Assembly (NCBI GenBank): GCA_001767455.1
Contig: MELC01000075.1
Location: 1-64,000, forward strand
Direction of reading: 5' to 3'
DNA: 64,000 bases
Source: Acidobacteria bacterium RIFCSPLOWO2_12_FULL_66_21
GTDB lineage: Bacteria; Acidobacteriota; Vicinamibacteria; Vicinamibacterales; 2-12-FULL-66-21
In this document: in pieces, positions 48,270 to 53,882 of the stretch
Layout of the letters: each line of letters starts with the position of its first letter
Position numbering within the stretch: the stretch's first letter is position 1
Notes under the pieces: generated by a model
The model's input: the letters and a program-made list of their open reading frames with translations, nothing else
What the model was told of the DNA's origin: nothing
Databases searched by the model: none
Translations under genes and position numbers: made by a program

Positions 48270-49103
48270 TCACAGCGCCGCGATGCGGCTGGGGTGCGTG
48301 TAGAGATTGAATCCTTCGTCGCGTACGAACCCGAGCAGCGTGATGCCCGCCTCGTGGGCGAGCTCGACCGCGAGGCTGGACGGGGCGGACACCGCGCAGA
48401 CGAGACTGATGCCCGCGAGCCACGCCTTCTGCACGATCTCGAACGACGCGCGTCCGCTCACAGCGATGGCGTGCGTGTCGAGCGGCAGCCGGTCGGCGAG
48501 CAGCATCGCGCCGATCACCTTGTCGGCCGCGTTGTGCCGGCCGACGTCCTCCGCCGACGCCACGCAGGTCCCGTCGAGTCCGAACACGGCCGCGCCATGC
48601 AGTCCCCCGGTCTCGTCGAACACCGCCTGCCGCTCGCGCAGCCGAACGGGAAGCGACGCCGCCACCTCCCGCGTCATCGTCCACCGAATCGGGAGCGGAG
48701 AAGCCTGAAGGCGCAGCGAATCGATGGTGACCCTGCCGCACAAGCCGCACGACGAGTTCGTCAGCACGTTGCGCCGCTCCTGGAGGTTCCGCTCGACCGA
48801 CGCGGCGGCATCGCCGAGGAAGTACACATCCACGATGTTGTGCACTTCGGGATGGTGCGGATGGCGGCAGTGCTCGACGGCCCCGAGATCGGCGCTCGAT
48901 CGCAGAATGCCTTCGGAGAGCAGAAACCCGGCCGCGAGCTCACGATCGGCGCCCGGCGTCCGCATGATGACCGCGAAGGGCTTGCCGTGCAGCCGGACTT
49001 CGAGCGGCTCCTCGGTCGCGACCATGTCGGTGCCGCTGTCGCGCCCGGCGCGTTTGATGCGGGTCACCTCGACGCGGCGATGAGGGGAGAGCGGATCGGT
49101 CAT
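48270..49103 (-). CDS. fdhD: Formate dehydrogenase accessory sulfurtransferase FdhD
   Basis: FdhD carries sulfur from cysteine desulfurase to the molybdenum cofactor of formate dehydrogenase. The 277-residue protein shows AAGFLLSEGIL, the Cys pair in SSCGLCG, GGLHGAAVFGLDG, EDVGRHNAADKVIG and SGRASFEIVQKAW. The ATG at 49103 fits the family. It lies 7 nt downstream of a DUF523 gene, so the two form an operon. No formate dehydrogenase subunit is in the window, so the target enzyme is encoded elsewhere. Confidence 0.93.
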   Translation of the reverse strand: MTDPLSPHRRVEVTRIKRAGRDSGTDMVATEEPLEVRLHGKPFAVIMRTPGADRELAAGFLLSEGILRSSADLGAVEHCRHPHHPEVHNIVDVYFLGDAAASVERNLQERRNVLTNSSCGLCGRVTIDSLRLQASPLPIRWTMTREVAASLPVRLRERQAVFDETGGLHGAAVFGLDGTCVASAEDVGRHNAADKVIGAMLLADRLPLDTHAIAVSGRASFEIVQKAWLAGISLVCAVSAPSSLAVELAHEAGITLLGFVRDEGFNLYTHPSRIAAL

Positions 49104-49110
49104 GCGGCAG

Positions 49111-49644
49111 TCACCGCCCCTGGCGCGGGACTTTCCCCTGATGATACGCATGCACCCGCTCGATGAACTGCTCGCGCACGGCGGGGTCCTGGAGACGCCG
49201 CTCGTGCTCGACCGGCAGCGACGGCATGCGCCTCATGAGCGCGTGGGCGAACACCCCGCGCCCCGTTTTCGTCGTCGCACCGTCGGCGTGATGCAGCCGG
49301 ACATCGTCCACGCCGCAGCTCGGCGAGCCGCTCTTCAGCACGTACCCGTCGAGGTCTTCCTGCTCGAGTTCGTCCAGCCGCTTCGCCGTCCACTGCTCGA
49401 CCGTGGCCGTGTAGTCCATCCCTGTCGCCAGGCCCACCATGCGAATGCGCCTGCCCTTCTTGACCAGGTCGACGGGCTCGCGCGGGGTCCCCAGGCCGGC
49501 CTCGACCTCGGGACACACCGGCACCCACGTGACGCGCTGTCCGAGGACGTCGGCCAGGAACGGATCGCGCGTGTGGCCGCCGTCGTAACGGACCTCCTGT
49601 CCGAGCAGGCACGCCGAGATCCCAACGCGAATGAGGCGCGACAT
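49111..49644 (-). CDS. DUF523 (TudS-like) desulfidase family protein
   Basis: The DUF523 family includes 2-thiouracil desulfidase (TudS), which uses a 4Fe-4S cluster to remove sulfur from thiolated bases. This 177-residue protein has the conserved cysteines in ISACLLG (near residue 12), VPVCPEVEAGLGTPREP (near 44) and LKSGSPSCG (near 110), the three expected cluster ligands. Sequence alone does not prove the substrate. Coupled to fdhD (7-nt gap), it may share sulfur handling. The ATG at 49644 lies next to a tandem array, and no Shine-Dalgarno is seen. Confidence 0.85.
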   Translation of the reverse strand: MSRLIRVGISACLLGQEVRYDGGHTRDPFLADVLGQRVTWVPVCPEVEAGLGTPREPVDLVKKGRRIRMVGLATGMDYTATVEQWTAKRLDELEQEDLDGYVLKSGSPSCGVDDVRLHHADGATTKTGRGVFAHALMRRMPSLPVEHERRLQDPAVREQFIERVHAYHQGKVPRQGR

Positions 49645-49653
49645 GAAATCTGT

Positions 49654-49733
49654 GTGTTTCGGTGTTCTTCCGTGGTCGTTGTGAACCGTGTTCCGTGTTC
49701 TTCCGTGGTCTATAGTCCGCGAGTTCCGCGGTC
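49654..49733. repeat. Degenerate tandem array built on CGTGTTC / TTCCGTGGTC
   Basis: GTGTTCTTCCGTGGTC occurs twice, with CGTGTTC units and a final TTCCGCGGTC variant. The period is 7 bp in places. It fills the gap between the DUF523 start and the threonine dehydratase stop, both leftward. Confidence 0.65.
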
Positions 49734-50698
49734 TAATTCCAGCGGAGCCCCTTCAACTGATCCAGGTTCACATTCCCGCCGCTCAGCACGCAGACGACCT
49801 TCGATCCCTTCGGCGCGCCCACAAGGCCGTTGAGGAGCGCGGCAACAGGCGCCGCGGCGGCCCCTTCGACGACGAGCTTCGCGTGCGACATCACCCAGAT
49901 CATCGCCTCGAACATCTTCTCGTCGGGCAGCGTCACGATTTCGTCGACGAACCGCCGCACCACCTCGAAGGTCGTCTCGCCGACCCGCTTCACGCGCAGC
50001 CCGTCGATGATGCAGTCGACGCGGTCGAGCGTCACCACGTGGCCCGCGGCGACGCTGTCGCGCATGCCGGGCGCGCCCGACGACTCCACGCCGATGACTT
50101 TCACGGACGGCTTCAGGTTCTTGACCGCCATCGAGACGCCCGAGATGAGCCCGCCGCCGCCAATCGGCACGACGACGACGTCGACCTCGGGCCAGTCGCG
50201 GACGACCTCGAGCCCCAGCGTGCCCTGCCCCGCGATGAGCTCCAGGTCGTCGAACGGATGCACGTATGTGAGTCCGCGATCGCGCACGAGCTCCTTCGCC
50301 TTCTCGTTGGCTTCGTCCCAAATCGTGCCGTGCAGGACCACCTCGGCGCCGTAGCCTCTCGTGGCCGCCACCTTCGACGGCGTGGCGTTGGCGGCCATGC
50401 AGACAACCGCCTTGATTCCGTGGATCCTGGCCGCGAGCGCGACTCCCTGCGCATGGTTCCCCGCGGAGGAACAGACGACCCCGCGGCGCTTCTGCTCGTC
50501 GGTCAGGAGCGCGAGCTTGTTCAAGGGACCGCGGATCTTGTACGAGCCTCCGCGCTGGAAGATCTCCGCCTTCAGCCGCACGTCGAGCCCCGTCAGCTCA
50601 CTCAGGATGCGCGAGGTGAGGAGCGGCGTGTGATGGATGTGCGGGGCGACGCGCGCATGGGCGGCTTCGAACACGTCCGCGCCGAGCGGCAGGTTCAT
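49733..50698 (-). CDS. Threonine/serine dehydratase (PLP-dependent)
   Basis: The enzyme deaminates threonine to 2-oxobutyrate or serine to pyruvate through a reactive enamine. The 321-residue catalytic-domain-only form (no ACT regulatory domain) has the PLP lysine in GGSYKIRGP (Lys about 54), the phosphate/carboxylate loop SSAGNHAQG, the glycine loop GGGGLISG and VLSGGNVNLDQL. Absence of an ACT domain suggests a catabolic, not isoleucine-inhibited, enzyme. The ATG at 50698 overlaps the stop of a triple-RidA gene (ATGA); a GTG at 50704 is an alternative. Pairing with RidA, which clears the enamine, supports the assignment. Confidence 0.92.
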   Translation of the reverse strand: MNLPLGADVFEAAHARVAPHIHHTPLLTSRILSELTGLDVRLKAEIFQRGGSYKIRGPLNKLALLTDEQKRRGVVCSSAGNHAQGVALAARIHGIKAVVCMAANATPSKVAATRGYGAEVVLHGTIWDEANEKAKELVRDRGLTYVHPFDDLELIAGQGTLGLEVVRDWPEVDVVVVPIGGGGLISGVSMAVKNLKPSVKVIGVESSGAPGMRDSVAAGHVVTLDRVDCIIDGLRVKRVGETTFEVVRRFVDEIVTLPDEKMFEAMIWVMSHAKLVVEGAAAAPVAALLNGLVGAPKGSKVVCVLSGGNVNLDQLKGLRWN

Positions 50699-51876
50699 CG
50701 GCACACCGCCGTCATCAGGATTTCGACGTTGCCGTCCGGCACGATGATGCCCGCTTTCACCGTCGCGCGCGCCGGAAAGTCACGCTCGAAAAACCGCCGA
50801 TACTCGTCGTTCATCGCGCTGAAGCCGTCGAGGCTGTCCAGGTACACCACGGCGTCCACGACGTCGGCAGGCGTGCAGCCCGCGGCCCGGAGCACGGTGC
50901 GCAGCCGTTCGAGCGTGGCTCGCGTCTGGCCCGCCGCGTCGCCGTGGTTGTCCCTCGTGACGCCGAACGCTCCAGACAGATACACATGATGTCCCGCGCG
51001 GATGGCCGACGTCACGTTCGGGCTCGTCGGCGGCACGCTGATCGGTTCCCGGCGGGCCGACGAGGCGACCATCGTCATCTCGACCAGGTACGGACTCGCG
51101 GTCAGCCCGGCGACGACCGTGGCGCGAGCGGGTGGGGCCGTCGTGAAGCGCTCGAGGTACGTCGCGTTCACCGGCTGGAACGCGTCCGGCTCCGTCACGA
51201 ACACACGCACCGACACCACGTTCGAGTACGACATGCCCGCGGCGGCCAGCAGCTCACCGGCGTTCTTCATCACGACCCCGGTCTGTGCCGAGATGTCGCC
51301 CGCCACCGTCGTATTGTCGCGGCCGTTGCGCGAGATGATGCCCGACAGGAACAACGTGTCGCCCGACTTGATGGCGTAGCTGTAGGGGTTTGGCGATCGC
51401 AGCCAGGCCCGCGGATGGACGACCGTCCGTTCCGCGCCGGCCGGCACGGCGATCATCGACATCTCGACGAGGGCGCCGGGCACGACGAGGTCGGTGACGA
51501 CGGTCGTGCGCGTCGGCGGTTCCGCCGGCCAGTACGTCTTGTAGGCGTCGTTCATCGCCTGAAAGTCGGCGGACGATTTCAGGTACACGGTGACGGCCAC
51601 GACGCGATCGAGCGACGAGCCCGAGACCGCCAGGACGGCCCGCAGCCTGTCGATCACCCGGCGCGTCTGCGCCGCGACGTCGCCGGCGCCGACGAGCGCG
51701 CCGCGGTCGTCCACGGCGAGCGTGCCCGAAAGATAGATGAAGCCCCCTGCCTTCACCGCCGGGCTGAAAGGCCCCGCGGCGGGCGGACCCGTGGTCACAA
51801 TCTGTTTGGCCGGCATCTCGGTCCCCATGAGAGAGATCGCGGCGTGAAGAAGGGCCGCCGCGAGCGGGTACATCAT
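50695..51876 (-). CDS. Protein with three tandem RidA/YjgF domains
   Basis: RidA hydrolyses the reactive enamine/imine intermediates released by PLP dehydratases. This 393-residue protein has three complete copies (about 25-146, 160-268 and 275-391). Each keeps the substrate-binding arginine and the glutamate: RTTVVTDLVVPGALVEMSM, RATVVAGLTASPYLVEMTM and RATVKAGIIVPDGNVEILM. Single-domain RidA proteins normally trimerise; this chain could be a covalent trimer. It overlaps the threonine dehydratase gene by 4 nt. The start at 51876 is supported by TAGAAT 7 nt upstream and adds a hydrophobic stretch that might export it; an internal ATG at 51816 gives a standard cytosolic RidA start. Confidence 0.9.
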   Translation of the reverse strand: MMYPLAAALLHAAISLMGTEMPAKQIVTTGPPAAGPFSPAVKAGGFIYLSGTLAVDDRGALVGAGDVAAQTRRVIDRLRAVLAVSGSSLDRVVAVTVYLKSSADFQAMNDAYKTYWPAEPPTRTTVVTDLVVPGALVEMSMIAVPAGAERTVVHPRAWLRSPNPYSYAIKSGDTLFLSGIISRNGRDNTTVAGDISAQTGVVMKNAGELLAAAGMSYSNVVSVRVFVTEPDAFQPVNATYLERFTTAPPARATVVAGLTASPYLVEMTMVASSARREPISVPPTSPNVTSAIRAGHHVYLSGAFGVTRDNHGDAAGQTRATLERLRTVLRAAGCTPADVVDAVVYLDSLDGFSAMNDEYRRFFERDFPARATVKAGIIVPDGNVEILMTAVCR

Positions 51877-51883
51877 GGGGGGG

Positions 51884-51889
51884 ATTCTA
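51884..51889 (-). promoter_or_regulatory. -10 hexamer TAGAAT for leaderless triple-RidA gene
   Basis: On the minus strand TAGAAT is followed by seven C and the ATG at 51876. No Shine-Dalgarno. Confidence 0.55.
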
Positions 51890-51921: not shown

Positions 51922-52129
51922 TCAGTGCGCCGCGCGATGTGTGATGGAGGTCCAGTCGCAGAGCGTCTGGATGTCGCGATCGCTCAGCCGCGCGGCGGTG
52001 TGGATCCACGTGTACGAGGGAAGCGGCATGTCCCGCTCACGGACTTCCTCGCACGCGTCCTCGAGGAACCCTCGCCTGGATGGCGATCGTCAGGATCGCG
52101 AACGCGACCGCCGCCCGCCGAACAATCAC
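51922..52129 (-). pseudogene. Remnant of a haem-binding-domain (Haem_bd) protein, middle deleted
   Basis: A GTG overlapping the FecR stop (GTGA, 52129) opens a signal peptide (VIVRRAAVAFAILTIAIQA). About 20 codons later the frame is lost. From 52068, in another frame, the C-terminal signature of the Haem_bd family is intact: FLEDACEEVRERDMPLPSY, then HTAARLSDRDIQTLCDW, ending at 51922. The central part of such proteins, which carries the CxxCH haem site, is missing. A deletion of some 70 codons with a frame change explains this. It was the third gene of a sigma-FecR operon. Confidence 0.75.
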
Positions 52130-53166
52130 TTTTCCCAATCGCGCTTCCACAGGCGCCACCATGTCGTGCTTTCCAGACCCAGGGCGTCCCACCAGCGATC
52201 GAGCGCCGCACGATCGCCGGCAAGGACCGCTTCCCTCGTCACCCCGTCGGGCGGCGGGGCCAGGACCGCCATCCTCTCGTAGACAAGGCGGCGCTCATCC
52301 AGCGACCCGCGCCTCAGGAGGTGCCAGAGCGTGAGCGCGTCGCGTGGCCGCGCCCGCGACAGGACGACGTCGAGCGCCGATGCGCGCCGCGCATCACCCG
52401 CATCGCTGAAGTCCAGCACGGCGAGCGCTCCGGCGTACCCCGCCGGCGCATCCTCGTACCGCGGTGTCCCGGGTCCGTTTCCACGACGGGTCGAGCAAAC
52501 GGCCCCTTCCGGGATGAACACTTCGCGCGCACCGCTCTGAAAGCCAACCCAGCCGTGGGTCACCCGGACCATGCCGCTGCCGTCGTCGGCGACCTGCAAG
52601 GTATATGCGCATCCGAGATCGACCGCCACCGCCGACGGCGTGTCGACGAAGAAGAACTTCGGAGGCGCCCAGATCGTGGCGTGAATCGTGCCGCGTGCGA
52701 GCGCCATCCGGTGCTCGCGCCCGCTCGAGGTGACGAGCTGCAGCCTCGTGTTCGGATCGACCTCCACTTCGCCGATTTCACCAACTTCGATGCGGGCGCG
52801 CGACGCGCCGTCGGTCACGAGCCACCCGCCTACCGCCAGCCTCGCGCCGTCGCGTCCGCGATTGCCCGCGACACGCACGCCGCTGACGACGGGCGCTCCT
52901 CCGACACGCTGGACGTCCCACCCGTCGCGGCGCGCCGTCCACGAGAACCATGCGGCGCTCGCGACGAGGAACATCATGGCCGCCACGGCGAGGGCCGGAA
53001 CCAGCATGCGGACCCAGCGCCGCACCGGGGGCCGCGGCCGGACGCCCAGCGGCTGCCCGCGATGGCGAAGCGGCGACAGCAGCGCCTCGAGGCGGACGAT
53101 CTCCGCGTCGGGCTCTCCGCTGCGGTCCCACAGATAGCGTTCGTCGTCCATTTGGCCTTCGCTCAT
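52126..53166 (-). CDS. FecR-domain anti-sigma-like membrane protein
   Basis: This 346-residue protein has a cytoplasmic N-terminal part (about 1-50), one membrane segment (about 52-72: MLVPALAVAAMMFLVASAAWF) and a periplasmic FecR-type beta-domain (about 100-230: GGWLVTDGASRARIEVGEIG, VDPNTRLQLV, then TPSAVAVDLGCAYTLQV). FecR proteins control their partner sigma factor. The ATG overlaps the sigma stop (ATGA). A C-terminal helical extension (about 240-346) is unusual for FecR. The operon continued into a haem-binding gene, now broken. Confidence 0.88.
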   Translation of the reverse strand: MSEGQMDDERYLWDRSGEPDAEIVRLEALLSPLRHRGQPLGVRPRPPVRRWVRMLVPALAVAAMMFLVASAAWFSWTARRDGWDVQRVGGAPVVSGVRVAGNRGRDGARLAVGGWLVTDGASRARIEVGEIGEVEVDPNTRLQLVTSSGREHRMALARGTIHATIWAPPKFFFVDTPSAVAVDLGCAYTLQVADDGSGMVRVTHGWVGFQSGAREVFIPEGAVCSTRRGNGPGTPRYEDAPAGYAGALAVLDFSDAGDARRASALDVVLSRARPRDALTLWHLLRRGSLDERRLVYERMAVLAPPPDGVTREAVLAGDRAALDRWWDALGLESTTWWRLWKRDWEK

Positions 53167-53690
53167 CGCTGCAACCTGTCGCGCAGCAGTCGCATGCCGC
53201 GGTGGAGATTCACGCGCACCGAGGCGGGTGTCATGCCGGTCCTGTCCGCGATTTCCTGGCCTGTCATACCCTCCACGAGCCGGAGCACGAGCGTCTCGCG
53301 ATAGGCATCCGGCAGCGACCGGACGACCTCGATCACGGCAATCGCCTCGGCCCGCGGCGCCGCCGCGTCCGGCGCTTCGAGGTCGGCGGGCAACTCGGTG
53401 GTTTCGACGGCGCGTCGATGGTGATCGATCGCGCGGCGCCGGGCGATCGAAGTGAGCCACCCGCCGAAGGCCTGCGGGTCGCGCAGCGTGGCCAGCCGGG
53501 CCCACGCCGCGAGGAAAACGTCCTGCACCAGGTCGTCGACGTCGACGCGGCCGACGCGCGCCAGCACGACGCCGTGGATGACCCGCGCATATCGCTCGTA
53601 GAGCCGCTCGAACGCGGACGCATCCCCGCCGCGCGCCTCGCGAACGAGCCGCGAGTCCTCCGCGGCATGCCCCGGGGAAAACCGCGTCAC
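53163..53690 (-). CDS. RNA polymerase ECF-type sigma-70 factor (FecR-linked)
   Basis: The core (about 175 residues from GTG 53690) has region 2 with ASAFERLYERYARVIHGVV and DVDDLVQDVFLAAWARL. The -10-binding helix lies in AFGGWLTSIARRRAIDHHRR, and region 4 has LPDAYRETLVLRLVEGMTG followed by the HTH QEIADRTGMTPASVRVNLHR. It would switch on a surface-signal or stress regulon under control of the FecR-type partner with which it overlaps by 4 nt. The start is uncertain: the frame stays open to 53840 and no good Shine-Dalgarno decides. Confidence 0.88.
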   Translation of the reverse strand: MTRFSPGHAAEDSRLVREARGGDASAFERLYERYARVIHGVVLARVGRVDVDDLVQDVFLAAWARLATLRDPQAFGGWLTSIARRRAIDHHRRAVETTELPADLEAPDAAAPRAEAIAVIEVVRSLPDAYRETLVLRLVEGMTGQEIADRTGMTPASVRVNLHRGMRLLRDRLQR

Positions 53691-53882
53691 GCTTGCCACG
53701 GGCGGGGACGCAGGCGCACACAAGAGTCTGGCAGCGATCTCCACCACCAGGGAGGACGCCGTGCGCGCGGAAATGTTAGCGAGTGGATGAGCTGGATGGG
53801 CGGGCCACCGCTCCCGATCCGGCGGCAGCTGGACATACAATCAATGAATCGACTGGATTGTACCGCACGCTCTGGAGGAATG

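Follow-up and report, generated by a model that had tools for sequence, protein, structure and literature searches.

The window, i.e. the whole stretch of 64,000 nucleotides analysed here, carries on its minus strand a gene encoding three RidA domains in a single chain (3x-RidA) next to a threonine dehydratase gene. The following features at and around the locus, all on the minus strand, are relevant.

53163-53840 (-): sigma-70 family (ECF-like) factor gene, upstream (profile match)
52126-53166 (-): FecR-domain gene upstream of 3x-RidA; genome G010 has a gene of this cluster immediately before its haem/3x-RidA genes
51884-51889 (-): -10-like element TAGAAT, 7 nt before ATGATG (same hexamer and gap in genome G001)
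51817-51876 (-): N-terminal leader MMYPLAAALLHAAISLMGTE, hydrophobic, with no Lys or Arg (sequence)
51814-51816 (-): alternative internal start, M21 (sequence)
50695-51876 (-): 3x-RidA open reading frame, 393 aa, with three PF01042 stretches
51445-51786 (-): RidA domain 1, residues 31-144, with R123, E138 and Phe at the Tyr17 position (profile and alignment)
51064-51396 (-): RidA domain 2, with R251, E266 and Y165, the only domain usually retaining the Tyr (genome match and alignment)
50704-51012 (-): RidA domain 3, with R370, E385 and Val at the Tyr17 position (genome match and alignment)
50695-50698 (-): ATGA overlap of the 3x-RidA stop and the dehydratase start (sequence)
49733-50698 (-): threonine ammonia-lyase (dehydratase), 321 aa from ATG (PF00291; TIGR01127)
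49111-49644 (-): 2-thiouracil desulfurase (PF04463); a gene of this type adjoins 3x-RidA on the 3' side in five relatives that have no dehydratase there
48270-49103 (-): FdhD sulfurtransferase, in the same gene array in relatives

Domain architecture and predicted fold

The initial annotation had described three RidA domains in one chain, each keeping the substrate Arg and Glu, and both points are confirmed. The PF01042 stretches score 250.9 bits in the profile search, where the cut-off is 27.3, and the three domains were also found as separate matches in the genome scan. The model of the Rid family detoxifying hydrolases (TIGR00004) is matched with 225.1 bits, a score summed over the three domains, against a cut-off of 106.25. 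Aligned to E. coli RidA (reference sequence from NC_000913.3), R123, R251 and R370 are equivalent to Arg105, and E138, E266 and E385 to Glu120. The Tyr17/Glu120 footprint of the window protein hence consists of Glu in all three domains and Tyr in domain 2 alone. Because each domain has the Glu and the Arg responsible for binding the carboxylate of the substrate, the protein likely hydrolyses imino acids, and the predicted RidA-like chemistry would yield keto acids and ammonia.

Residue conservation was counted over 65 aligned orthologues, i.e. the 66 distinct ones less L108, which was left out because its chain is cut within domain 1; for domain 3, the partial match L113 was entered as a gap. 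The Arg is kept in 65, 65 and 55 of the 65 rows in domains 1, 2 and 3, respectively, and the Glu in 58, 65 and 61. The domain-3 Arg is missing only in rows at 38-46% identity to the window protein and in the partial L113. Loss of the Arg in close orthologues had been named beforehand as evidence against the initial annotation, and close orthologues were found to keep it in all three domains. The Tyr17 position is mostly Phe in domain 1 (48/65, with Tyr in 7/65), Tyr in domain 2 (59/65) and mostly Leu in domain 3 (53/65, with Tyr in 4/65). A separate residue table of 52 rows, with one gene counted twice, agrees with these counts. In S. enterica RidA, changing the Arg is reported to have almost abolished activity, and changes of the Tyr and Glu to have had little effect (PMC4433059). 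The Arg being the critical residue there, 3x-RidA may have three active sites. The RidA site itself has been described both as a cleft between monomers (PMC5979572) and as a pocket on each monomer (PMC6435465).

The AlphaFold2 model of the chain (22 aligned sequences) has a mean pLDDT of 89.2 and a pTM of 0.89, which supports a fold as a single covalent pseudo-trimer. Chorismatases (4bps, 5ag3, 5a3k), which are also single chains, align over the whole predicted pseudo-trimer; 4bps matches with Z 25.0 and an rmsd of 3.0 over 279 residues spanning positions 43-391 at 16% identity, and Foldseek aligned chorismatases to the model over about 350 columns. The sequence falls far short of the chorismatase FkbO/Hyg5 model, with 16.2 bits against a TIGR04444 cut-off of 325. 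The suggestion in the initial annotation that the chain is a covalent version of the RidA trimer is supported by both the model and the single-chain chorismatase match. The idea is not new. The triple architecture is already published as a named type, 3x-RidA, described as "presumably covalently linked trimer units" with EF_0115 of Enterococcus faecalis as an example (Niehaus et al. 2015, PMC4433059). As far as that source describes it, the published type shares three tandem RidA domains in one chain with the window protein, and the same source reports RidA genes clustered with threonine dehydratase genes, as in the window. No other paper on "3x-RidA" or "three RidA domains" was found in the literature searched. 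The words "signal peptide" do not occur in the main text of PMC4433059, and the portion of the paper available to us mentions neither a haem domain nor an asymmetry of the three sites for 3x-RidA. The new part is the putatively exported, haem-linked variant.

Compared with the RidA/YjgF/UK114 homotrimer (TIGR00004, PF01042), the window protein has the same domain fold and the same Arg and Glu, but places three units in one chain; its family usually retains the Tyr in domain 2 only and mostly carries predicted export leaders. The cyanuric acid hydrolase AtzD (Toblerone fold) likewise concatenates three YjgF-like units in one chain, as reported in PMC3758960. According to the same source, its repeats have strongly diverged, with 9-18% identity among them, and catalysis takes place in its central barrel. 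AtzD gave no sequence match to 3x-RidA and was not among the 50 VIA-align rows listed.

Start codon and predicted export leaders

The initial annotation had proposed that an upstream start supported by a -10 element adds a hydrophobic stretch in conflict with a cytosolic role. Both the TAGAAT element and the stretch, at about residues 3-17, are present. The sister-genus genome G001 has the same TAGAAT at the same gap, before MRLPSPAAVCLAASLSA. Since the hexamer lies at 7 nt and is shared with G001, the first ATG is supported, and the leader MMYPLAAALLHAAISLMG is probably translated from the start at 51876. A GGGGA stretch precedes the internal M21.

Among 459 called starts drawn from the window and loci L093-L132, TANNNT occurs 28 times at a gap of 6 nt and 15 times at 7 nt, compared with 0-7 times at every other gap up to 39 nt. 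The excess at 6-7 nt fits leaderless starts, which look like a feature of the genomes sampled. The 43 starts concerned, the one at 51876 among them, point to widespread leaderless mRNAs in the lineage. Conservation of the -10 element across the 3x-RidA family was considered and rejected. The element lies at the 6-7 nt gap in five of 66 orthologues (the window, G001, G052, G042 and G032), no more than at several other gaps.

The family is widespread in the order, probably Vicinamibacterales, with 3x-RidA in 80 of 162 genomes at E <= 1e-45; across the phylum, 41 of the 396 genomes sampled have it at E <= 1e-60. Three loci from a scan of genome contigs (L038-L040) have an open frame of just 85-177 aa at the match and are uninformative on the triple form. 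On plasmids, no 3x-RidA match was found at E 1e-20. Leaders were scored on the deduplicated set of 66 orthologues with a strict rule, which is home-made and not SignalP. It requires an in-frame start, a positive n-region, an uncharged core with mean hydropathy >= 1.9 and small residues at -3/-1. Of the 66, 53 satisfy this rule. In the comparison sets, one of the 69 genes from eight neighbour families did so, as did 16 of the 19 from two families of secreted type. None of the five MsrP-like cluster genes was recognised, one of which has a twin-arginine-like start, so that the rule is not a full predictor. The 13 non-passing orthologues comprise one cut by a contig end (L094), one misplaced by the alignment with its leader further on (L027), two fused to haem domains (L034, L107), four with hydrophobic but uncharged leaders (the window, L099, L102, L103) and five without a leader (L095, L108, L109, L110, L113). 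Members of a second 3x-RidA group at 31-35% identity (L041-L045) show, by eye, lipobox- or Sec-like starts in L042, L043 and L045.

Some relatives link the triple RidA chain to an anchored haem domain. The loci are the following.

L107:6947-8560, L034 and L108:7032-8534: an anchored c-type haem-binding domain (PF14376), with 3x-RidA fused to it or immediately following

In a domain search, the G015 protein consists of Haem_bd (PF14376) and three RidA domains, with RRR, a hydrophobic anchor and a CYDCH motif at the N-terminus. The G056 frame, read by eye, has a similar N-terminus with a CYNCH motif. G010 encodes Haem_bd separately, in an open reading frame that ends just before that of 3x-RidA. 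Attachment of c-type haem occurs outside the cytoplasm, and the fused haem/3x-RidA chains should thus lie there. Judged from sequence, the 3x-RidA family of the order would typically be exported, by Sec-type leaders or by anchored haem fusion. No description of a periplasmic, exported, secreted, extracellular or lipoprotein RidA in bacteria was found in the literature searched. A TatC survey has yjgF in a gene list, apparently of genes near tat genes, in the part of it that was available.

Export to the periplasm, which the initial annotation regarded as contrary to its proposal, is thus indicated for most of the family, but the window copy departs from the pattern. Its leader has a core hydropathy of 2.17, lacks Lys and Arg and fails the strict rule. 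The lowest core hydropathies among real leaders are those of G001 (2.00) and the window, and G005, a member of the same four-member clade, has no leader; that of G008 is truncated by the end of its contig. With a leader that is weak and without a basic residue, export of the window copy may or may not persist. Leader decay in this clade, with a protein possibly cytosolic there, is a fair rival to persisting export.

Dehydratase pairing and its distribution

The dehydratase is of the PLP-dependent type. It matches TIGR01127 with 382 bits (cut-off 378.75) over profile positions 1-291 of 380, with the C-terminal part missing, and no ACT domain was found in it. The proposed overlap of the 3x-RidA stop (TGA, 50697-50695) with the dehydratase start (ATG, 50698-50696) was borne out as an ATGA, which is kept in the two g2 relatives G001 and G008. 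Because these relatives also start the dehydratase at the ATGA, the GTG at 50704 listed for the open reading frame is unnecessary. Neither the triple RidA gene nor the overlap depends as an observation on chance resemblance.

The pairing is rare across the family. Downstream sequence of at least 400 nt was available for 64 orthologues. In 34 of them the next called gene runs in the same direction; it is the dehydratase in three (the window, G001 and G008), each with a -4 overlap. A 2-thiouracil desulfurase-type gene comes next in five (G005, G010, G032, G042 and G013), overlapping by -4 in G005 and G010, with spacings of -1 in G032 and G042 and +10 in G013. The order after 3x-RidA in the window is dehydratase, then desulfurase and FdhD. 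Since the desulfurase-type gene adjoins 3x-RidA in five relatives, the dehydratase looks inserted. The simplest reading would be an insertion between 3x-RidA and an older desulfurase-type neighbour, on the lineage comprising the window and its sister genus. The window, G001, G008 and G005 form a clade with support of 99/96. The dehydratase-linked rows form no exclusive clade in the tree (two changes), with G005 among them, and an older gain of the dehydratase followed by its loss in G005 is possible and as good an account as insertion.

A dehydratase search covered 39 chosen genomes, namely those of the family and others in which 3x-RidA had been matched, and recovered an orthologue of at least 73% identity in 13. 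Three of these are paired with 3x-RidA, two are cut by contig ends (G011, G024), and in G042 the two genes lie on different contigs. No Rid gene was found near the dehydratase in the fetched stretch of G048, G004, G002, G032, G010, G023 or G059. The initial annotation saw an enamine producer and its detoxifier placed in one translational unit. That such pairing is what the unit is for is not supported as a general statement, since the dehydratase follows in 3/64 orthologues and seven genomes have no Rid gene near it in the fetched stretch. Where the ATGA occurs, the pair is probably translationally coupled, and coupling in one mRNA would tie the dosage of 3x-RidA to that of the dehydratase. 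A shared dosage follows from such coupling; a shared compartment is not shown by the coupling itself.

Possible functions and wider gene neighbourhood

We favour, with moderate confidence, the reading that 3x-RidA is a covalent imine deaminase for which export is the family norm and dehydratase pairing is lineage-restricted and dosage-setting. The three fused domains would form the covalent pseudo-trimer seen in the model, likely hydrolysing imines by analogy with RidA, and the proteins of the order would leave the cytoplasm through a Sec-type leader or an anchored c-type haem domain. More tentatively, we propose that exported pseudo-trimers, some of them haem-anchored, perform extracytoplasmic imine chemistry or ligand binding, and that the window copy reflects dehydratase capture with a decaying leader and a possible return to the cytosol. 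A somewhat doubtful alternative, in line with the initial annotation, has a cytosolic 3x-RidA in the window's clade that is made together with the dehydratase and destroys 2-aminoacrylate and 2-aminocrotonate where they form. The leader of an exported ancestor would have stopped working, or M21 would serve as the start, with the protein returning to the cytosol as the dehydratase arrived. Retention of the ATGA overlap in three species of two genera would suit such a history, as would a leader weakest in exactly the window's clade and absent in G005, the GGGGA stretch before M21 and the RidA-dehydratase clustering reported in PMC4433059. The -10-supported start argues otherwise, since it puts the leader into the protein, and G001 has the same hexamer and gap. 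The overlap is also not specific to the dehydratase, because the desulfurase-type gene has the same -4 overlap in G005 and G010. Moreover, the window genome already has two single-domain genes of RidA type (L001, L002) that keep the Tyr, Ser, Asn, Arg and Glu. As L001 starts without a leader, the clearance of enamines in the cytosol could do without 3x-RidA.

Two other readings change the function rather than the compartment. The pseudo-trimer could have been recruited to a different reaction, as in chorismatase or cyanuric acid hydrolase, a reading that we consider unlikely. The asymmetric sites, with Tyr usually in domain 2 only, Phe in domain 1 and Leu in domain 3, and the whole-chain fold match to chorismatase point that way; the sequence is remote from chorismatase, in both identity and TIGR04444 score, and the Arg and Glu are retained. 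It is very unlikely that the exported protein acts mainly as a chlorination-activated stress chaperone and not as a deaminase. E. coli RidA is reported to turn into a chaperone on N-chlorination (PMC4284807), a property that speaks for this role together with an MsrPQ-type gene pair in the fetched stretch at five of 32 orthologue loci. The link to the MsrPQ-like pair is loose, at several kb, and may reflect wider synteny, and a ligand-binding cleft is suggested by the conserved Arg and Glu of domains 1 and 2.

If the favoured reading of an exported imine deaminase is true, widespread exported and haem-fused RidA proteins would prompt one to ask which imines form outside the cytoplasm. RidA has so far been studied in relation to enamine stress in the cytosol, mitochondria and plastids. 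The window's clade would offer a natural experiment on how one mRNA comes to encode both an exported protein and a cytosolic enzyme. Should export fail, what is left would be an architecture and a kind of gene pair that are both known already.

Further observations concern the surroundings of 3x-RidA and other Rid genes. A single-domain Rid gene elsewhere in the window's genome (L004, G000:C86:90441-90773) has a signal-peptide-like N-terminus, MSKTPSTIAFVLVCLALAPVRSGAQ. The stretches before 3x-RidA in the window (52126-53840) and in G010 (L108:5387-7038) each have a FecR-domain gene, both from one cluster, immediately next to the 3x-RidA locus, and the gene before it is the sigma factor in the window and a 209-aa open reading frame in G010. 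The MsrPQ-type pair (Oxidored_molyb and Ferric_reduct) is found a few kb from 3x-RidA at L100, L106, L113, L118 and L121. Many other families of the order have 3x-RidA within a conserved block that also includes SET-domain, UPF0227 hydrolase and SpoIID/transpeptidase genes (L096, L097, L098, L107 and others).
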